In this document: one piece after another, positions 4,543 through 38,019 of the stretch
Position numbering within the stretch: the stretch's first letter is position 1
Layout of the letters: each line of letters opens with the position of its first letter
Source: Gammaproteobacteria bacterium
Lineage (GTDB): Bacteria > Pseudomonadota > Gammaproteobacteria > Eutrophobiales > Eutrophobiaceae
Direction: 5' to 3'
DNA: 38,176 bases
Assembly (NCBI GenBank): GCA_021773235.1
Contig: JAJFKL010000033.1
Location: forward strand, 1-38,176
Notes under the pieces: model-generated
Seen by the model: only the letters and a program-made list of their open reading frames with translations
Told to the model about the DNA's origin: nothing
The model's database searches: none
Translations under genes and position numbers: made by a program

Positions 4543-5993
4543 GTGAAATAGTAACAAAACATGACCTGCCAAGCAGCTGGAAATGGTGCACTCTCGATGA
4601 TGTAGCTGATGTGGGAGCAGGTAACCCTGCCCCGCAAGGTGAAAATAAATTTGAAAACGGAAATATGCCATTCGTTCGTGTTAGAGATATGGGAAAACTC
4701 CAAGGACAAGTTAGACTCCACGAAGTTGGCGATTATGTAAATACAAAGGGTGCAGAGGGACTTAAACTAATTAAGAAAGGAAGTGTGCTTTTTACCAAGA
4801 GTGGCGCATCAACTCTTTTGAATCAAAGGGCAGTTCTTGGACAGGATAGCTATGTTGTAAGTCATATAGCAATAGCAAAACCTAAAGAAGGTATTTTAAG
4901 TGAGTGGGTCTACTATTGGATGAGGCTCATTGATTTTGGCAAATTGGCTCATGGTGCAAATATGCCATCTTTGCCCTTGTCTAAGGCAAAGGTTATACCT
5001 ATACCACTTGCACCACCCGAACAACAAAAACGCATCGTCGCAAAAATAGAAGAACTCTTCTCTCATATCGACGCCGGCATCGAAGCCCTAAAAAAAGCCA
5101 AACAACTCCTAAAGCAATACCGTCAATCCGTCCTCAAAGCCGCCGTCACCGGCGAGCTAACCAAAGAATGGCGCGTGGCAAATAAAGACAAGCTCGAGCC
5201 CGCTTCCAGACTACTCGAACGTATACTTAAAGAACGTCGCCAAAAATGGGAAGAATTCGAGTCGGAAAAACACAAGGTTACAAACAAGTCTCCAAAAAAT
5301 GAAGACTGGAAGAAAAGATACAAAGAACCTATCGATTTTGATTTTGATGATGAGATGGAACTGCCGAGCGAATGGGTACAAACAAGTCTTGATTCAGTAA
5401 CCAACCTCCTGACGGATTACCACGCTAATGGAAGTTATAAGGTTCTTAAAGAATATGTGGTCCTAAAAGATGAACCAGACCATGCGGTATATATTCGGTC
5501 AAAGAATTTTGAAAAAGAAGATTATACAAATGATTTAAAATATGTCTCTGAAGAAGCGTATAAAAAACTTTGGAAATCAAAGCTATTTGGCGGTGAAATA
5601 GTAGTAGGAAAAATAGGGAATGCTGGCAGAGTTTATATTATGCCAGAAGCTAAAATGCCTACTACGTTAGGAATGAACCTTTTTATGCTGAAGTTAAATA
5701 AATATGTAAATAATGAATATATTTATTACATGCTGAAAAGCAGTCTTGGTGCTTTACAGATTTCGAGACGGGTTAAAGGGGTAGGAAACCCAACAATCGA
5801 TAAGTTTAGTTTGAAAAATATATTCATGCCTCTTCCGAGCGAAGAAGAACAGGATGTAATAGTTGAGCTCATTGAAGATAAATTTGAAAAAATAAATAGA
5901 CTTGAAAAAGATATTGATTTTCAATTGGTAAAAGCGAAAAAAAATAAACAGTCGATATTGGCTTCAGCATTTTCAGGGAAGATTTCTCAATGA
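4539..5993 (+). CDS. hsdS: Type I restriction-modification specificity subunit
   Basis: 484 residues, the normal size for a two-domain HsdS that chooses the bipartite recognition site. Target-recognition domain 1 spans roughly 10-150. It is followed by the conserved spacer with PPEQQKRIVAKIEELF and a long helix to about 220. Domain 2 spans roughly 270-430, followed by a second helical repeat ending SILASAFSGKIS. The two helical repeats are the usual pseudo-symmetric halves. Codon use is more GC-rich in the conserved spacer than in the recognition domains, consistent with domain exchange. It overlaps hsdR by 4 bp and the RloC-like gene by 4 bp. The recognised DNA sequence cannot be read from the protein. 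Confidence 0.94.
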   Translation: MSEIVTKHDLPSSWKWCTLDDVADVGAGNPAPQGENKFENGNMPFVRVRDMGKLQGQVRLHEVGDYVNTKGAEGLKLIKKGSVLFTKSGASTLLNQRAVLGQDSYVVSHIAIAKPKEGILSEWVYYWMRLIDFGKLAHGANMPSLPLSKAKVIPIPLAPPEQQKRIVAKIEELFSHIDAGIEALKKAKQLLKQYRQSVLKAAVTGELTKEWRVANKDKLEPASRLLERILKERRQKWEEFESEKHKVTNKSPKNEDWKKRYKEPIDFDFDDEMELPSEWVQTSLDSVTNLLTDYHANGSYKVLKEYVVLKDEPDHAVYIRSKNFEKEDYTNDLKYVSEEAYKKLWKSKLFGGEIVVGKIGNAGRVYIMPEAKMPTTLGMNLFMLKLNKYVNNEYIYYMLKSSLGALQISRRVKGVGNPTIDKFSLKNIFMPLPSEEEQDVIVELIEDKFEKINRLEKDIDFQLVKAKKNKQSILASAFSGKISQ

Positions 5994-8266
5994 GAATTAC
6001 TAAACTTGCACGAGTTAAGAAGCTTAGGTTGTTTGATGATTTTAAATGGCCTACAGAACTCAATGACTATCAGTTTGGACAATTCAATCTTATATATGGC
6101 TGGAATGGGGTCGGTAAAACAACAATTAGTACATTATTTAGACAGCTAGAATCCGAGTCGGTAAGAGGGCACGAACCTTTAGAAAAGGATGCTGAGTATA
6201 GATTTGATTGTGATAACGGAACTACATTAACGCGTGTGGATGCAGATGAAGGAAACGCAAATGTTAAAGTAAGAGTGTTTAATCGAAAATTTATCGAAAC
6301 TGTTATCAGCAAATCTCAGAGTAGCATTGAACCGATATTTCAGATTGGACCAGAAAACGTCCGAAAAGCAGAAGAGTTAGAAAAGAAGGAGAAAGAAGCC
6401 GCCAAATTAGAAAGTACAATACATGAAAATCGGAGAGAATCACGAGAGTTAGAAGGGAAGGTGAGCGAACTGGGGCATCGTATAGCGAGGAATATAAAGG
6501 ACACCTTGCGTATCCACACGCCTTATCGTGCAACTAATTTTATAAGTGAATTGGATGCAGTTAAAGCTGATTTGGAAAAGCACAAATTAAGTGATTCAGA
6601 ATATGGGGTAGAGTTAAGTAAACTCGATCAGCAGTCAAAACCACTGCTTGACAGCAAGATGATGGTCGATTTAATTGACCTAGAGGATTATTCAAAAAGA
6701 ATCAGCGAAATTTTAAGTAAAAGGCCAATAGCCACTACTATTAAAAGGTTAGAAGACAATAGCCGTTTAAATATCTGGGTAAGGGACGGGCTTGCAATTC
6801 ATTCTGGCGAAAAAGGTATGGCATGTGAGTTTTGTGGAAACACAATAAATGAAAAAAGAATAACAGAGCTTGAGAGTCATTTTAGCGAAGAAGTCGAGGA
6901 GGTGTTAAAACAAGCGGATGCTCTTAAAAAGGAAGGAGAAGCCGCGCTGACTGTTTCTGTTAGTAAGCTTAACAAGGCAGAGTTGTATGATGAGTTCGTC
7001 GACGAATATAGCAAAAGCATGGAGCTTATTGAAGAAGGTGTTGAAAGATGTCAAGGATCAGTAAAAGCCTTGGTCGAAAAGTTAAAACAAAAAATTGCTA
7101 TACCAACTCAGCCTATCGATCTAGAGATCGAATTGCCGACTATTGAAATAACCAAAGAGATTGAACGAGTAAACGGATTAATCGCTAAACAGGATGAAAA
7201 AACGCGAGAATTCGACAAACATAAAGATAGATGCATAAATGCATTAAAGAAGCACTTGGTTGCGACTAGCGCAGGTGAGTATTTGGAAGCGAAAAACAAA
7301 GAGAAGAATAAGAACGAAGAGATAGTAACAAATAGCGCCGAAAAAAATGAAGCGGACAAAGATATTACTAGGCTTAAAGCAGAGTTAGAAGATCACCAGA
7401 GAATTCTTCCGGGTTTAAATATTATATTAAGAGACTTCCTCGGGCGAGAAGAAATAAAATTCCAAGCAAAGGAAGGCGGTTATCAGATAGTTAGAGATGA
7501 GCATATAGCAGAACATCTCAGTGAGGGTGAAAAAACAGCGATCGCTTTTTCATATTTCCTAATGAGTTTAGAGGATGATTCTTTCAATATTGATAACGAC
7601 ATTATTGTTATTGATGATCCAATATCTAGTTTGGATACAAATGCTGTTTACTATGCATTTAGTGTGATAAAGCAGAGACTATCTTCTTCAAATCAACTTT
7701 TCGTACTTACACACAATTTTCCATTTTTTAGGCAAGTTAAGAGGTGGTGGTCGAATAATGGTAAGCCAAAAGAAAACACACGTTTATATCAGTTGAGAAG
7801 ACATTCAAATACGACAAATCTTGAAGAGCTAGATAAATTGCTGGCCAAATATGATTCTGAATACCACTACCTATTTAAGCAACTGCTTGAGAGTTCGAAT
7901 TGTACCTCAACTGAAGCATCTGAGTATTTTCATATCCCTAATGTCGCTAGAAGAGTCTTAGAAGCGTTCATGGCCTATAGGAAACCGCAACAGTCAGGAA
8001 ATTTCGAGAAAAGTTTAAGACTTTTATCTCATGATTCCGATTCATTCAAGCCTGTAGATTCTTCTACTACGGGCGTTCATAACTCTATATCAGAAATGGA
8101 GAGATTCACGCAAGTGCACTCTCATAATGAAAGAATTGACGATCAAGGCGATGATTATATAGCGATACTCGCGAAAACGCCTGAAATACTGAAGAACATC
8201 TTAAAATTAATTGAAGAAACTGCACCAAACCATTATTTAGAAATGTTTAAACTTTGTAATAGTTAA
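5990..8266 (+). CDS. RloC-like SMC-type ATPase with zinc hook, candidate anticodon nuclease
   Basis: 758 residues in the AAA_13 (RloC/PrrC) family. Walker A GWNGVGKTT is at 37-45. A coiled coil is interrupted by a zinc-hook CEFC at 279-282. The ABC signature LSEGEK is at 510-515 and Walker B IVIDDP at 539-544, then THNFPFF. After the ATPase, ARRVLEAF places R654/R655 and E658, and HSH places H710 and H712. This fits the Arg-x3-Glu...His catalytic pattern of PrrC and RloC tRNA anticodon nucleases, but related ATPases without that activity have similar residues. Known: RloC and PrrC sit in hsd operons and act when restriction is compromised. Here it lies between hsdS and hsdM with a 4-bp overlap, as expected for such a guard. 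Confidence 0.75.
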   Translation: MRITKLARVKKLRLFDDFKWPTELNDYQFGQFNLIYGWNGVGKTTISTLFRQLESESVRGHEPLEKDAEYRFDCDNGTTLTRVDADEGNANVKVRVFNRKFIETVISKSQSSIEPIFQIGPENVRKAEELEKKEKEAAKLESTIHENRRESRELEGKVSELGHRIARNIKDTLRIHTPYRATNFISELDAVKADLEKHKLSDSEYGVELSKLDQQSKPLLDSKMMVDLIDLEDYSKRISEILSKRPIATTIKRLEDNSRLNIWVRDGLAIHSGEKGMACEFCGNTINEKRITELESHFSEEVEEVLKQADALKKEGEAALTVSVSKLNKAELYDEFVDEYSKSMELIEEGVERCQGSVKALVEKLKQKIAIPTQPIDLEIELPTIEITKEIERVNGLIAKQDEKTREFDKHKDRCINALKKHLVATSAGEYLEAKNKEKNKNEEIVTNSAEKNEADKDITRLKAELEDHQRILPGLNIILRDFLGREEIKFQAKEGGYQIVRDEHIAEHLSEGEKTAIAFSYFLMSLEDDSFNIDNDIIVIDDPISSLDTNAVYYAFSVIKQRLSSSNQLFVLTHNFPFFRQVKRWWSNNGKPKENTRLYQLRRHSNTTNLEELDKLLAKYDSEYHYLFKQLLESSNCTSTEASEYFHIPNVARRVLEAFMAYRKPQQSGNFEKSLRLLSHDSDSFKPVDSSTTGVHNSISEMERFTQVHSHNERIDDQGDDYIAILAKTPEILKNILKLIEETAPNHYLEMFKLCNS

Positions 8267-30438: not shown

Positions 30439-30531
30439 TTTATTCTCCTATTGCCTGTGTATGTATAAAGTCTGTTATTCACTCATAAATTCTTGAAAAT
30501 AAGGACCGTTGAGTCCACAATAGTCTACATA

Positions 30532-31116
30532 ATGAACCTGGGAAGACCAAGAGAATTTAATACTGAGCAAGCATTAGAAGCTGCCATGCAACAGTTTTGG
30601 CGTACAGGCTATGAGGCGACATCGCTTCAGGACTTGCTTGATGTGATGAATTTGTCAAAAAGTAGTTTGTATCACACGTATGGTAGCAAGCATGACTTGT
30701 TTTTGCGCAGCATAGATTTCTATCAGAAAAAATCAGTCAGCGAACTTCAACAGTGTTTAAATGACAGCCATACTAGTAAGGCGTTTATGAAAACATTACT
30801 AGAAGATGTTATTGCCGAAGCGACATCAAAAAAGAAAAAAGGTTGTCTGCTCGTCAATACTGTTAACGAGTTATCGCACAGAGACAAGGCGGTGTCTAAA
30901 GCAGCTTTAAATGGAATCGATAATGTAGCAGGTGTTATTAAGCAAGCGATAAAGCGCGGAAAAAAAGAGGGCGCAATTAAATCAACAGTGAGCACTGATA
31001 CTCTAGTTAACTATATTGTTTCTAACGTTAGTGGCTTAAGGACAATGGTAAAGAGTGGTGTTGCTAAGGCTGATTTAATCCCGCTAACAAACATGATTAT
31101 AAAAACCGTCTATTAA
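30532..31116 (+). CDS. TetR-family transcriptional repressor
   Basis: 194 residues from the ATG at 30532. A TTG start 39 bp upstream is possible but would add residues before the usual LGRPREF start. The N-terminal helix-turn-helix is typical: EQALEAAMQQFWRTGYEATS, then LLDVMNLSKSSLYHTYGSK (about 14-55). The C-terminal helical domain has no recognisable ligand motif, although the GCLLVNTVNEL stretch is common in TetR proteins related to NemR and AcuR. It is divergent from the two glutathione transferase genes and probably represses them. I see no convincing palindrome in the 93-bp gap. It ends in a strong terminator. Confidence 0.85.
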   Translation: MNLGRPREFNTEQALEAAMQQFWRTGYEATSLQDLLDVMNLSKSSLYHTYGSKHDLFLRSIDFYQKKSVSELQQCLNDSHTSKAFMKTLLEDVIAEATSKKKKGCLLVNTVNELSHRDKAVSKAALNGIDNVAGVIKQAIKRGKKEGAIKSTVSTDTLVNYIVSNVSGLRTMVKSGVAKADLIPLTNMIIKTVY

Positions 31117-33399: not shown

Positions 33400-33685
33400 T
33401 TCTCCTCATTCATTCTTATGTGATTTCTTCTTAATCCGTTCTGTGGCAGCAACCATTATGCCAGAATCTTAATGACGACTTTTTTATCTTTATCTATTTG
33501 AATTTTTTAGTGTTTATATGAGTAGGGACTTTGTCTGTATTTAGCTAAAGCGCTCGAAAATGAATCGGATGTTTAATAACAGTATGATTTATGGATGAAT
33601 TTGATTTGTTTAGGCCGATAAAAAAATAGAGTTTTGGTTTACTGAAATATCTTTTATATTAACAATAAACATAAGAGGATATCCG

Positions 33686-34144
33686 ATGAAACTTGAACCA
33701 TTTATGACTTATTACGCAAACCTTTCAGCTGTATTAGATGTGGGAAATGGACCATTTGGCAAACGGATGATTTTCGAAGTACAGGGTGGTGAATTCAAAA
33801 GCGACAAGCTAAATGGAAAAATTCGTGATGCCAGTTGTGCTGACTGGATGACGATTAGCGATGATGGCTATGGTCATTTGGATGTTCGCGCAACATTCGA
33901 AACAGACGATAATGCGATCATCTATGCGCAGTACTCCGGGGTTATTGAACTCACAGAAGGGATTATGGGGGCAGTTGCTGGAGAGTGTGAAACCAATTTT
34001 GGCGAGCAAAATTTCTTTACTAATCCACGTATGCAAACCGGTGATGAGCGATATAGTTGGGTAAATAATATTTTCTGTGTTGCACGGGGCCGTTTGTTGC
34101 CAGGCAAGGTGGAATACGAAGTATTTCAGTTGGTAAATGAGTAA
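33686..34144 (+). CDS. DUF3237-family protein
   Basis: 152 residues. The sequence begins MKLEPFMTYYANLSAVLDVG and contains GPFGKRMIFEVQGGEFKSD, then DWMTISDDGYGHLDVRATFET, the repeated beta-strand pattern of the DUF3237 (lipocalin-like barrel) family. No enzymatic function is established for the family; it is often seen near genes for aromatic or ketone breakdown. AGAGGA precedes the ATG. The next gene, an oxidoreductase, is 189 bp downstream with its own operator pair, so the two are probably separate transcripts. Confidence 0.8.
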   Translation: MKLEPFMTYYANLSAVLDVGNGPFGKRMIFEVQGGEFKSDKLNGKIRDASCADWMTISDDGYGHLDVRATFETDDNAIIYAQYSGVIELTEGIMGAVAGECETNFGEQNFFTNPRMQTGDERYSWVNNIFCVARGRLLPGKVEYEVFQLVNE

Positions 34145-34226: not shown

Positions 34227-34301
34227 ATTGTCGACAATATAGGGTTGAGTTACACGTATATGAGGTTTAAACTGTTGCATATTGCTACAATTGTCAACAA
34301 T
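34227..34301 (+). promoter_or_regulatory. Operator pair and promoter for the MDR oxidoreductase
   Basis: The perfect palindrome ATTGTCGACAAT is at 34227-34238 and the related ATTGTCAACAAT at 34290-34301, 63 bp apart start to start. Between them lies TTGAGT (34245-34250), a 17-bp spacer and TAAACT (34268-34273), a plausible promoter. TTGTC(N)ACAA-type sites are typical of GntR/FadR-group regulators. The layout, one site just upstream of -35 and one after the start point, fits looping repression. The same pair recurs before the carboxylase operon. Confidence 0.7.
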
Positions 34302-34333
34302 AATAATACTGCAAAATCAAGGGTAATCATTGT

Positions 34334-35347
34334 ATGTCTGAAGTGAACCACGTCTGGCGATTACGTAAACGTCCTATTGGCGATATACGTGATGGTGATT
34401 TAAGTTTTGAAGAAGAACCTATTCCTGAACCTGCAGACGGAGAATGTCTATTCCGTCTTAACTATCTATCTCTAGATGCCACTAATCGGATGTGGATGAG
34501 TGATGTAGAACAATACATGCCTCCAGTTGCGATTGATGACCCAATGCGTGGTGTCGTTTGTGGAACTGTTATTAAAAGTAAAAACAATGCCTTTAAAGAA
34601 GGCGATATTGTCAGCGGGCTTGGTGCTTGGGCAGACTATCAAATTGGTAGTGCTGAGACTGTGAGCGTTTTGGGCGATACTGGCCCTGTACCAGTTATTG
34701 ATGCTTTTGGTACTTTCGCTATCGCTGCACCGACGGCTTATTTCGGCTTGCTAGAGATTACAGAACCCAAAGCAGGAGAGACCGTTGTTATTTCAACGGC
34801 CGCTGGCTCGGTAGGATCGATCGTCGGACAAATTGCCAAAATCAAGGGCTGCCATGTCGTAGGGATTACCGGTACAGATGAAAAATGTAAATGGATAACG
34901 GAAGAGTTAGGCTTTGATGAGGCCATCAACTACAAAACAGAAAATTTGTCAGAGGCACTAAAACGAACCTGTCCTAATGGCATAGATGTCTATTTTGAAA
35001 ATGTAGGCGGTGAGATCTTTGATACTTGTCTCGCCCATATGAACATGTACGGCCGCATCTCAGTGTGTGGGCTAATAGCACATTACAATTCCAGCGAAGA
35101 AGTCCAGGGACCAAAGAATTATCCAATGATTCTGATGAATCGGCTTAAGGTTCAAGGTTTTATCATACTGGATTATATGGATCGCTATCCGGAGGCAATA
35201 ACAGCAATAACGCAATGGATGAGTGAAGGCAAAATCAAGGTACAGCAAGATGTTGTCGAGGGACTAGAAAATGCAGTTGATACGGTTAAAAAACTCTATA
35301 CCGGGGCTAATACCGGTAAGTTAATGGTTCGTGTAAAAGACGTGTAA
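34334..35347 (+). CDS. MDR-family NADP-dependent oxidoreductase (CurA/PTGR-like)
   Basis: 337 residues, the normal length. It belongs to the zinc-free medium-chain reductases: N-terminal LNYLSLDATNRMWM (about 43-55), a Rossmann glycine motif AAGSVGS at 156-162, and YFENVGGEIFDTCL near 225. Relatives reduce alpha,beta-unsaturated ketones using NADPH. AAGGG lies ten bases before the ATG. The promoter region matches that of the next operon, so this enzyme probably serves the same pathway, perhaps reducing or recycling a ketone handled by the carboxylase. Its actual substrate is not visible. Confidence 0.85.
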   Translation: MSEVNHVWRLRKRPIGDIRDGDLSFEEEPIPEPADGECLFRLNYLSLDATNRMWMSDVEQYMPPVAIDDPMRGVVCGTVIKSKNNAFKEGDIVSGLGAWADYQIGSAETVSVLGDTGPVPVIDAFGTFAIAAPTAYFGLLEITEPKAGETVVISTAAGSVGSIVGQIAKIKGCHVVGITGTDEKCKWITEELGFDEAINYKTENLSEALKRTCPNGIDVYFENVGGEIFDTCLAHMNMYGRISVCGLIAHYNSSEEVQGPKNYPMILMNRLKVQGFIILDYMDRYPEAITAITQWMSEGKIKVQQDVVEGLENAVDTVKKLYTGANTGKLMVRVKDV

Positions 35348-35674
35348 AACGCAATTTATATTTGAAAGAAACAATACGTAGTGTGAATTTAGAACGGATT
35401 TATCACATACGTTCGATAATAGAACCCTTTCAAAAAGACGGATAATTTCGAAGAAATCGAAAGTGTCAATTAAAACAAATAGATAGAGTTATAATGATGA
35501 CAATCAAAATCTTGGCACAGTGAATGCATTTTATGTAAGCCGAGATAAATATTGTCGACAATAATTGATAAAGAGACCAAAAAAAGCGGCAATAAACTCA
35601 AGAATAAAGAATAATTGTCAACAATCTTAAAGAATTAATATAATTTCAATAATGCAAAACCAAGGAAAATTATT
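35348..35674. other. Regulatory spacer before the carboxylase operon
   Basis: 327 bp without a gene. The right half holds the operator pair described separately. The left half has a short TTTCGA/TCGAAA dyad near 35447-35463 and no strong terminator. No small RNA or riboswitch structure is recognised. Confidence 0.5.
35551..35625 (+). promoter_or_regulatory. Operator pair for the carboxylase operon
   Basis: The palindrome ATTGTCGACAAT at 35551-35562 (14-bp palindrome with its flanks) and ATTGTCAACAAT at 35614-35625 are again 63 bp apart. TAAACT lies between them at 35593-35598, within one base of its place in the other promoter. No good -35 box matches it. A shared element TGCAAAAYCAAGG, which includes the ribosome site, follows in both cases (34310-34322 and 35653-35665). 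One regulator very likely controls both transcripts. Confidence 0.7.
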
Positions 35675-37612
35675 ATGGGAATGCTAGTTAATATCGACAA
35701 CGGCGGAACGTTGACAGATATATGTGTACTGAAAGATAAGAACGTTTATAAGACCAAAACGCTAACAACGCCGTATGACTTAAGTAAGTGTTTTTTTGAT
35801 GGTCTAAAATCAATCTCAAGCGTGATTTACGGCGAAGAAGATGTCGCAAAACTTCTGATGGAAGTTGAGCATATTCGTTATTCAACCACTCAGGGTACGA
35901 ACGCGATTGTAGAGCGTAAGGGCCCAAAACTGGGGTTGATTGTAAATAAAGGTAATGCCGATTTAGCTAAGCGTATGCGCGAGCAAGATGAAGACTTGTT
36001 CGACTTTTTGATTGGAGATCGTATTGTTGAGGTTGATCTTGCTGATTTAGGTGATGAGGCAAAGGCAGCAGATACTGCTACGGTGATTACTAGACTCACC
36101 GGAATGGGTGCCAATAGGCTCGTTGTTTGCTTTGATGCTGATAATGCGGCTATCTCTGAGGCTCAATTCAAAAGGATAGCATTCGATATTTATCCGCGTC
36201 ACTTATTAGGTGCTGTACCGATACTTTTCGCCAGCGAGATAGTTGATGATGTATCAGCAGATCGACGCGGTTGGACGGCATTGACGAATTCATTCTTGCA
36301 TCCTGCGATGGAAAGCTTCCTGTACAACGCAGAAAATAGACTACGCGAATATCGTACCAAGAACCCGCTGCTTATTTTCCGTAACGATGGTAACGCCTCA
36401 CGAGTTGCTAAGACAATCGCGCTAAAGACCTATAGTTCTGGTCCGCGCGGTGGCATGGAAGGCGTCAAAACATTCAGCAAACAATACAATCTCTCAGATG
36501 TAATGACCATGGATGTTGGTGGTACGACAACGGATATTGGCCATCTGGTTGATCTGAAATTAAACGAAGAACGACGCGGCAAAGTTGAGGGTGTACCTAT
36601 CTCTTTTGGATTGTGTGAAATACACAGTGAAGGTGTTGGCGGCAGTTCAATATTGTCTGTCGCGGATGGTGCAATTCAAGTTGGTCCTGAGAGTGTCGGT
36701 GCCGTTCCTGGGCCTGCCTGCTTTGGTCGCGGTGGTAAGAGCTCAACATCAACTGATGTAAATCTACTCTTGGGTTTGCTCGATCCATCAACCTATTTCG
36801 GTGGTGGCTTAAAGCTTGATAGTGATCGTGCGCGTGCAGCTATCGATGAAAATGTAGCATCACCTTTAGGTGTTTCTGTTGATGAGGCACTGCATAAGCT
36901 TAGTGATGCTTATGAGCAAAAGATTGCTGATGGAATGAAAGACTTTGGTGATGTTGCGAAAGATACCGTGCTACTCGCTTTCGGTGGCGCTGGCCCGATG
37001 AACGCATGTGGTATCGCTGAATTAGCCGGTATCAATACAGTTTATGTGCCAAAGACGGCAGCTGTTTTTAGTGCCTTTGGTATCGGTTCTTGCGATATTG
37101 GCCAGAGCTATGCTGTTGTGTTGTCTGCGAACAAACAAGAATTGCTCTTAGAGGCTTATGCCGGACTTATTGAACGTGCTGAACGCGATATGTTTGCAGA
37201 AGGTTATGCCAAAGGTGACTTTGATATCAGTGCACAATTGGTCAGTGAATCAGGTTCTAAAGAGTCTACTCATCAATTAAACGGAAAAATTTCACTACCT
37301 AAAGAATTAGAAAAGGCAGACTCAGTCACGCTCGAAGTGATCGCTAGTAAACGTTTGAAGACTGAGGATGATAAAAAAGTCAAAACCAAAAAAGGTAAGA
37401 TGGCAACTTCTTCAGGTGACCGTACTATCGTTGGCAATGATCTTAAGAGTCAAGACGTACCGGTCTATAACATTAATGACATGGTTTCTGGAGAACATGC
37501 TTCAGGTCCAGCAGTGATTGAAGAGGATTACTTCACCTGTCTTGTACGTGAAGGTTGGGAATTTGTTGTTACAGAGGCAGGTGATATCTGTCTGACTAAG
37601 GGGGCTAAATAA
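35675..37612 (+). CDS. Hydantoinase/oxoprolinase-family ATPase subunit (ApcA-like)
   Basis: 645 residues. The N-terminal Hydant_A_N domain opens MLVNIDNGGTLTDICV, the first phosphate-binding loop. A second ASKHA-type loop, MTMDVGGTTTDIGHL, is at about 275-289, and FGGAGPMNACGIAELA follows near 435. Together with a gamma-like zinc protein and a second hydantoinase-type gene directly behind, this matches apcA-apcB-apcC of acetophenone carboxylase, an ATP-dependent ketone carboxylase. Acetone carboxylase and hydantoinases are related alternatives. The N-terminal loop has DNGG instead of the common DVGG or DIGG. AAGGA precedes the ATG and the gene overlaps the next by 1 bp (TAATG). Confidence 0.75.
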   Translation: MGMLVNIDNGGTLTDICVLKDKNVYKTKTLTTPYDLSKCFFDGLKSISSVIYGEEDVAKLLMEVEHIRYSTTQGTNAIVERKGPKLGLIVNKGNADLAKRMREQDEDLFDFLIGDRIVEVDLADLGDEAKAADTATVITRLTGMGANRLVVCFDADNAAISEAQFKRIAFDIYPRHLLGAVPILFASEIVDDVSADRRGWTALTNSFLHPAMESFLYNAENRLREYRTKNPLLIFRNDGNASRVAKTIALKTYSSGPRGGMEGVKTFSKQYNLSDVMTMDVGGTTTDIGHLVDLKLNEERRGKVEGVPISFGLCEIHSEGVGGSSILSVADGAIQVGPESVGAVPGPACFGRGGKSSTSTDVNLLLGLLDPSTYFGGGLKLDSDRARAAIDENVASPLGVSVDEALHKLSDAYEQKIADGMKDFGDVAKDTVLLAFGGAGPMNACGIAELAGINTVYVPKTAAVFSAFGIGSCDIGQSYAVVLSANKQELLLEAYAGLIERAERDMFAEGYAKGDFDISAQLVSESGSKESTHQLNGKISLPKELEKADSVTLEVIASKRLKTEDDKKVKTKKGKMATSSGDRTIVGNDLKSQDVPVYNINDMVSGEHASGPAVIEEDYFTCLVREGWEFVVTEAGDICLTKGAK

Positions 37613-38019
37613 TGAAAGTTTTAATGACCGAGTATCTTCGTATCGATTTGGATACAGAAAACTGGGAATGCCGTGTTTGTAACCATATCATTGGTTCAGC
37701 ACGCGGTAATTATAAAGAAGGTTTGCTGGTTTATAACCGCGACCCAGCAGATATTCATCCACACATTATCGATCCAGAGAAATATAAATTTACCTTCTGC
37801 CCTGATAAAGATTGGGTCAATATTCTTGAATTTTATTGCCCAAGTTGTGGCACGCAGGTCGAAGTTGAAAACACGATGCCGAATCATGAACCGCTCTATG
37901 ATATGGAAGTTGATGTTGATGCACTTAAAGAACAGTGGAGTCATCGTGAAGAAATTACAGAAGCGACGAAAGGGCCTGATGTTTTAGGTGAGGTCGAGCG
38001 AACTAGACATCGCCACTAG
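37612..38019 (+). CDS. Acetone/acetophenone carboxylase gamma-like zinc protein (ApcB-like)
   Basis: 135 residues. C20-RV-C23 and C76-PS-C79 form a four-cysteine zinc site, and MTEYLRIDLDTENWECRVC is typical of the small gamma subunit of acetone carboxylase and of ApcB. The C-terminus is acidic and helical. It overlaps the ApcA-like gene by 1 bp, so the two are made together, and the next hydantoinase gene starts 59 bp later. Known role: a small structural or metal-binding subunit of the carboxylase. The substrate of this enzyme remains unknown. Confidence 0.78.
   Translation: MKVLMTEYLRIDLDTENWECRVCNHIIGSARGNYKEGLLVYNRDPADIHPHIIDPEKYKFTFCPDKDWVNILEFYCPSCGTQVEVENTMPNHEPLYDMEVDVDALKEQWSHREEITEATKGPDVLGEVERTRHRH

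Follow-up and report, generated by a model that had tools for sequence, protein, structure and literature searches.

Two pairs of palindromes in the window analysed here, the whole of contig C27 (38,176 nucleotides) of a gammaproteobacterial genome, are probably doublet operators of a GntR-FCD repressor of the PrpR/PmiR type, whose dimers on the two sites of a pair would touch and so bend or loop the DNA between them. The motif, its pairing, the helical phase, the family of the regulator and its co-occurrence with the pairs, all read from sequence, point to this assignment. The sites and the neighbouring genes are the following.

34227..34238, no strand assigned: O1 operator of the oxidoreductase promoter, ATTGTCGACAAT; the same site is found in the related genomes G009, G006, G003 and G007
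34290..34301, no strand assigned: O2 operator of the oxidoreductase promoter, ATTGTCAACAAT, 63 bp from O1
35551..35562, no strand assigned: O1 operator of the carboxylase operon, ATTGTCGACAAT
35614..35625, no strand assigned: O2 operator of the carboxylase operon, ATTGTCAACAAT, 63 bp from O1
33686..34144, plus strand: DUF3237 gene
34334..35347, plus strand: ADH_N_2/zinc-binding dehydrogenase oxidoreductase, curcumin-reductase-like, scoring below the curcumin-reductase NCBIfam cut-off
35675..37612, plus strand: hydantoinase A/acetophenone carboxylase alpha-like subunit, below the ApcA cut-off
37612..38019, plus strand: acetone carboxylase gamma/ApcB-like subunit; the contig stops shortly beyond it, and the remainder of the operon is seen in relatives

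The earlier note on this DNA placed the ATTGTCGACAAT/ATTGTCAACAAT pairs at 34227/34290 and 35551/35614, each 63 bp from start to start, and these positions are exact. The spacing of the carboxylase pair in relatives is 61 bp (G009), 62 bp (G006) and 62 bp (G003), and the genus promoter alignment shows no operator pair at the carboxylase promoter of G007. When up to two mismatches are allowed, the window holds 29 single matches against a shuffled mean of 20.7, with 10 of 100 shuffles as high; single matches of this quality are thus near chance, and the signal lies in the exact sites and their pairing.

The ApcA, ApcB, ApcC and ApcD models all match the carboxylase-like subunits below their cut-offs, which leaves the operon outside the acetophenone/acetone carboxylases as these named enzyme models define them; Pfam Acetone_carb_G scores over its cut-off. 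The operon of G006 continues with ApcC-like and ApcD-like subunits, an unnamed protein of 285 residues, an AMP-binding ligase, a thiolase-like protein and a dehydrogenase. A GntR gene had been expected near the end of the apc-like operon, and this relative's operon, which holds enzymes and the one unnamed protein, speaks against that location; the regulator gene instead lies on another contig, C31, where it heads prpB-prpC and is itself preceded by such a pair. A TetR-type regulator encoded at 30493-31116 of the window was also considered as owner of the sites and set aside, as it belongs to another family.

Across the 2.87 Mb assembly, which is 80.9% complete, ATTGTCNACAAT gives 18 strand-matches, against 2 for a reversed control pattern. 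These correspond to 11 exact places, ten of which form five pairs spaced 62, 62, 62, 63 and 63 bp; the eleventh, at C36:58521, is unpaired and lies within a Cys/Met PLP-enzyme gene. The wider form ATTGTYRACAAT has 12 places among the matches listed, two of them unpaired (C36:58521 and C8:17568), and the pair pattern TTGTYRACAA-N38-68-TTGTYRACAA, which admits spacings of 48-78 bp, returns the same five pairs and none with the reversed control. A motif common genome-wide without spacing preference, the outcome named in advance as speaking against a shared regulator, is therefore not what is found, 10 of the 11 exact places being paired at 62-63 bp. The five pairs and the genes that follow them are:

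C18:68977/69039, 62 bp: before an acetoacetate decarboxylase-family gene
C18:80076/80138, 62 bp: before aceE and its E2 gene
C27:34227/34290, 63 bp: before the ADH_N_2 oxidoreductase of the window
C27:35551/35614, 63 bp: before the acetophenone/acetone carboxylase-like operon of the window
C31:31242/31304, 62 bp: before the gene of a 229-residue GntR-FCD regulator, then prpB, then a citrate synthase-family gene at the prpC position
C31:30539-31225, minus strand: the GntR/FCD regulator gene itself, at the head of prpB-prpC, with the same operator pair just upstream

The predicted regulon is accordingly wider than had been noted, and takes in the acetoacetate decarboxylase-like gene, aceE with its E2 gene, and prpR-prpBC.

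The 229-residue regulator combines an N-terminal GntR winged helix (PF00392, E 1.8e-16) with a C-terminal FCD domain (PF07729, E 5.1e-27), both over cut-off. Its closest solved chain is 7xp0_A, aligned over query residues 13-223 of 229 with 226 bits and E 4.6e-66; we take this entry, whose record title is Probable transcriptional regulator, to be PmiR of P. aeruginosa, and presumably PmiR is a second name for PrpR (PA0797) of that species. The chain 6z74, which we take to be Atu1419, is also related by sequence (E 9.9e-13). Thirteen NCBIfam models match the regulator and none reaches its cut-off; the best is phnR_burk, with 118.5 of 271.5 bits, and no PrpR or PmiR model is among them. With the pair upstream of its gene, the two domain matches and the similarity to 7xp0 bear out the GntR-type regulator that the earlier note had postulated. 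PrpR (PA0797, GntR family) is described as a repressor of the prp genes in P. aeruginosa, with the 12-nt palindrome ATTGTCGACAAT as its predicted motif and with binding in EMSA to the region upstream of prpR (PMC9765439), and a GntR-family PrpR has been predicted in Shewanella (PMC3223726). Motif and regulator type are thus already known, and since the window motif is the published palindrome, the regulator can be named. Two further features of sequence agree with PrpR/PmiR membership: the ATTGTCGACAAT operator stands before the regulator gene and before its predicted targets, and the regulator gene is linked to the methylcitrate cycle through prpB, a methylisocitrate lyase over its NCBIfam cut-off, and the citrate synthase-family gene downstream. 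Since the same doublet precedes its own gene, the regulator is probably autoregulated.

Exact pairs are present in 8 of 12 genus genomes, and the same eight have the regulator, although only residues 73-229 of it are present in G010. The remaining four have no pair; three give no regulator match and G002 has two HTH fragments only. The pair lies just upstream of the gene in seven of the eight genus regulators (with one mismatch in G009), the eighth being the partial G010 gene. This co-occurrence, together with the common pairs, upholds the proposal of one regulator for both window promoters. In a search open to 48-78 bp, all 30 genus pairs fell at 61-64 bp (62 bp in 19, 63 in nine, 61 in one and 64 in one). 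Unpaired exact ATTGTYRACAAT copies account for 5 of 17 places in G006, among the matches listed. Near relatives in the wider collection are the uncultured Gammaproteobacteria L109 and L089, with regulators 97% and 89% identical. As a separate observation, the G002 stretches L242 and L243 carry only part of the regulator winged-helix region (76-80% identity) and both run into the same unrelated sequence on two contigs, in a genome without the operator pair; perhaps a repeated element carries this regulator fragment.

The promoters associated with the two window pairs differ from each other, as the following elements indicate.

34245..34250, plus strand: probable -35 of the oxidoreductase, TTGAGT, 17 bp before TAAACT; aligned in 5/5 genomes (TTGAAT in G009, TTGAAA in G007)
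34268..34273, plus strand: probable -10 of the oxidoreductase, TAAACT; aligned in 5/5 genomes (TAAGCT in G006, CAAACT in G007)
35512..35528, plus strand: sigma-54-like box TTGGCACAGTGAATGCA, upstream of the carboxylase O1; aligned in 5/5 genus promoters, including that of G007, where the pair is missing

TAAACT begins at 34268 and at 35593, positions 42 and 43 when the first base of each upstream site is numbered 1, so the earlier observation of such a box at nearly the same place between the sites is correct as to position, and at the oxidoreductase the box is a conserved -10; at the carboxylase promoter it is unconserved, and TAAACT was rejected as a box common to both promoters. The oxidoreductase spacer between the sites has 0.82-0.90 identity in the four genus genomes measured. 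The carboxylase spacer has 0.51-0.66 identity against 0.52 (sd 0.05) when shuffled, and the distance across it stays at 61-63 bp in the four genomes with the pair. The box at 35512 was identified against what we take to be the sigma-54 consensus. RpoN, which a sigma-54-type promoter would require, was not found in the own assembly (80.9% complete, as given above), but it is present in 10 of 12 genus genomes, including all eight that are at least 90% complete, and its absence is therefore likely to be an assembly gap.

The spacing was then considered across the class. A scan of a collection of species genomes with ATTGTCGACAAT-N36-66-ATTGTYRACAAT gave at least 118 stretches, and 80 loci were read, many of them closely related (Acinetobacter, Marinomonas, Vibrio). 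They contain 82 spacings of 48-78 bp, 77 of which fall at 51-54 (17), 60-63 (47) or 71-74 bp (13); the five outside these bands are 55, 65, 66, 68 and 69 bp, and as the spacings of 66 (L059) and 69 (L048) precede true regulator homologues, exceptions to the phasing do exist. A relative of the regulator is present in 67 of the 80 loci, and in 60 it starts 15-168 bp downstream of the pair and has at least 43% identity. Four stretches were judged to be chance matches or something other than true pairs: Amycolatopsis L102 and Actinoplanes L115, where GC content is 70-71% and the regulator relatives are below 30% identity; Novosphingobium L108, with a regulator relative of 28% identity; and the Treponema MAG L096, where TTGTCGACA-containing units about 21 bp apart at 5700-6100 mimic the pair pattern and the locus has no regulator relative.

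Because the first scan fixed the range of spacings and was rich in near relatives, a second set of promoters was assembled without a spacing rule, from 36 regulator homologues (E <= 1e-40) in 321 class genomes, taking 400 bp upstream or as far as the contig end. Allowing up to two mismatches per site and three in all, 24 of these 36 promoters have a pair, and 23 of the 24 are spaced 51, 52, 53, 62, 63, 71, 73, 74 or 75 bp, with one off phase at 96 bp; 200 rounds of shuffling the upstream sets gave no pair. The 12 promoters without a pair at this threshold comprise five with one exact site, four with no site, one cut by the contig end and two in which the motif is shifted to AATGTCGACATT and AATGTTGACATT, spaced 62 bp. 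These last two, L234 and L235, belong to more distant relatives of the regulator (38-39% identity), in which the motif differs and the distance is equal.

A weight matrix was also applied to the 34 of the 36 promoters whose best site exceeded the score limit. The second-best site within 30-120 bp lay in the bands 51-54, 61-64 and 71-75 bp in 30 of the 34, and in 19 of 22 families when the first-listed member stood for each family (P about 9e-14, with band edges that were set after the spacings of the 80-locus scan had been seen). A phase test at 10.5 bp gave R 0.885, a value reached in none of 100,000 simulations, for the 19 of the 22 families within 45-80 bp, leaving out three at 39, 42 and 87 bp. 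Exact pairs with ATTGTCGACAAT as one site occur at 48-78 bp in 8 of the 321 class genomes, one of them at 65 bp (G066:C42), and at 17-47 and at 79-109 bp in none of the 321 in either range. Pair spacings across the class thus correspond to 5, 6 or 7 helical turns, six in the window, and these exceptions aside the operators lie on the same face at integer numbers of turns, as we would ask of a short loop. The same-face arrangement read earlier from the 63-bp distance is borne out by these tests; they also support the cooperative or looping binding put forward with it, where the bridging itself is something that we infer.

Such spacing might also arise if the two sites were independent roadblocks around a promoter, their distance set by the length of a sigma-70 promoter plus clearances and involving no contact between dimers. 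We examined promoter placement by reducing 110 loci to 76 that have distinct sequences, a regulator at least 35% identical and no more than two mismatches over the whole pair, and removing three at 66, 69 and 84 bp to leave 73 regulator promoters. The best sigma-70-like -35/-10 match, scored by consensus frequencies, fell strictly between the sites in 42 of the 73, a majority, against a mean of 4.2 (largest 8) in 30 controls in which the sites were kept and the remaining promoter sequence was shuffled; with overlap of O1 or of up to 6 bp of O2 allowed, the figures were 61 of 73 against 24.4 (largest 37). These counts are what roadblocks would predict. However, steric blocking needs no integer-turn spacing, which 19 of 22 families nevertheless have; the carboxylase operon has its conserved sigma-54-like box upstream of O1 and O2 alike and retains the spacing across a diverged spacer; and 9 of the 42 promoters of the 62-bp class have the -35 within O1, at offset 4, with equal spacing. 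We regard independent roadblocks as unlikely. It is unlikelier still that the phase serves contacts of the repressor with an RNA polymerase trapped between two dimers, and not contact between the dimers. The frequent position of the promoter between the sites, at repeated offsets, would fit such trapping: the -35 starts 16-17 bp after the O1 start in 20 of 42 promoters of the 62-bp class and at 27 in 5 of 11 of the 73-bp class. Among the inside cases of these two classes, -10 and O2 are separated by 17-18 bp in 20 of 37 and in 4 of 10, respectively; as this gap is equal in both, the extra turn appears to lie toward O1. Against trapping, several promoter placements go with equal pair spacing, the -35 lying in O1 or between the sites, or a sigma-54-like box lying upstream. 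The -10 often overlaps O2 in the 52-bp class (8 of 14 at -3), and inspection by eye of the genus prpR promoter suggests a -35 within O1.

Shared ancestry of one copied promoter could likewise keep a spacing that has no function. The conservation of the oxidoreductase spacer within the genus is in keeping with copying, as are two comparisons between spacers of the own genome, acetoacetate decarboxylase with aceE (0.68) and aceE with prpR (0.64), which exceed the shuffled mean of 0.50 (sd 0.07). The other eight of the ten such comparisons give only 0.49-0.58, the carboxylase spacer is near random between species, and spacing differs between families by about one turn. Common descent alone is very improbable, given that targets and families with unrelated spacers have largely kept the phase. 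The integer-turn spacing persists through changes in the type and position of the promoter and in the sequence of the spacer, and the regulator itself therefore appears to sense the distance, as contact between its dimers would imply.

Under the preferred reading of touching dimers, each 12-bp palindrome would be bound by one dimer, and two palindromes facing the same side of the DNA at a distance of 5, 6 or 7 turns (6 in the window) would bring their dimers into contact; the simplest such complex would be a dimer of dimers, with the intervening DNA bent or looped. A rise in propionyl-CoA would lead to 2-methyl(iso)citrate and so to release of the repressor, inducing the oxidoreductase, the ketone-carboxylase-like operon, the acetoacetate decarboxylase-like gene, aceE with the E2 gene, and prpBC. 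Carboxylation of a ketone (e.g. butanone), CoA ligation and thiolysis would yield propionyl-CoA, which would fit a signal derived from propionyl-CoA. We infer the protein contact or loop, the repression and the ligand, the last by analogy with the setting of the homologue. At 52-75 bp a loop is short and stiff, and the bridging could therefore take the form of a bent complex or go through RNA polymerase. For the class as a whole we see an even chance that the GntR-type PrpR proteins of Gammaproteobacteria are bridging repressors over 5, 6 or 7 turns with an evolved discrete ruler, that selection keeps the bridge and not the position of the promoter, that the same clamp may act on sigma-70 and sigma-54-type promoters, and that this genus has extended the circuit to an operon for ketone carboxylation, the products of which would give propionyl-CoA.

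Parallels for the bridging step exist within the GntR family. Atu1419 of Agrobacterium fabrum is a tetrameric FCD regulator of the VanR group, and by EM one tetramer loops two sites 190 bp apart (PMC7797058). Like Atu1419, the regulator encoded on C31 is an FCD protein with two palindromes; the sites reported for Atu1419 are 190 bp apart, or 109 bp in the case of a degenerate pair, and the part of that account consulted gives no rule of 5, 6 or 7 turns (PMC7797058). BusR of Streptococcus agalactiae, a molecular ruler of the GntR family, recognises two same-face sites at a fixed distance, as tested with a +5 bp insertion (PMC8517857). It resembles the present system in this fixed arrangement of paired sites, but differs in its RCK_C effector domain, rigid coiled coil, 22-bp separation and single length. 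Looping by Atu1419 and the fixed-distance ruler of BusR make the bridging step plausible. AraR of Bacillus subtilis has another effector domain and responds to a sugar signal. Its GntR-type DNA-binding domain goes with cooperative binding to several adjacent sites (PMC4494728).

PrpR of P. aeruginosa shares with the C31 regulator the operator ATTGTCGACAAT, the role of a GntR-family regulator of prp genes and the autoregulatory position, and PrpR of Shewanella the role of a GntR-family regulator of prp genes, in an account that, in the part consulted, states no motif (PMC3223726). The P. aeruginosa description, in the part consulted, has one palindrome upstream of prpR (PMC9765439), whereas here there are two at integer turns, and the predicted regulon of the C31 regulator is wider, including a ketone-carboxylase-like operon. 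Neither the phased doublet nor this regulon was found in the literature searched, and a prior mention elsewhere is possible. With these pairs, a regulator known for a single palindrome would become a bridging system open to test, for which many families provide a natural series of one-turn spacing steps and a natural experiment on short loops of 52-75 bp. They also link an uncharacterised ketone-carboxylase-like operon to a regulator and to propionyl-CoA status as its likely signal.

Some further observations concern single loci. A third pair, spaced 64 bp, precedes the orthologue of the DUF3237 gene in G006 and G009, and a decayed pair is present in G003. Compared with G003, the window lacks about 75 bp at 33640-33690, a stretch that took in O1 and the promoter of the DUF3237 gene; an apparent trace of O2 remains upstream of the gene, and the pair has been lost. 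Phased pairs elsewhere precede acetyl-CoA synthetase-like genes (L056, L091 and L092), an acetoacetate decarboxylase-family gene (L114) and an aceE-like gene (L088). Three loci from Vibrio and Vibrionales (L063, L069 and L106) have three sites before the regulator, separated by 19 and 43 bp, 62 bp in all, with the extra site inside the pair.
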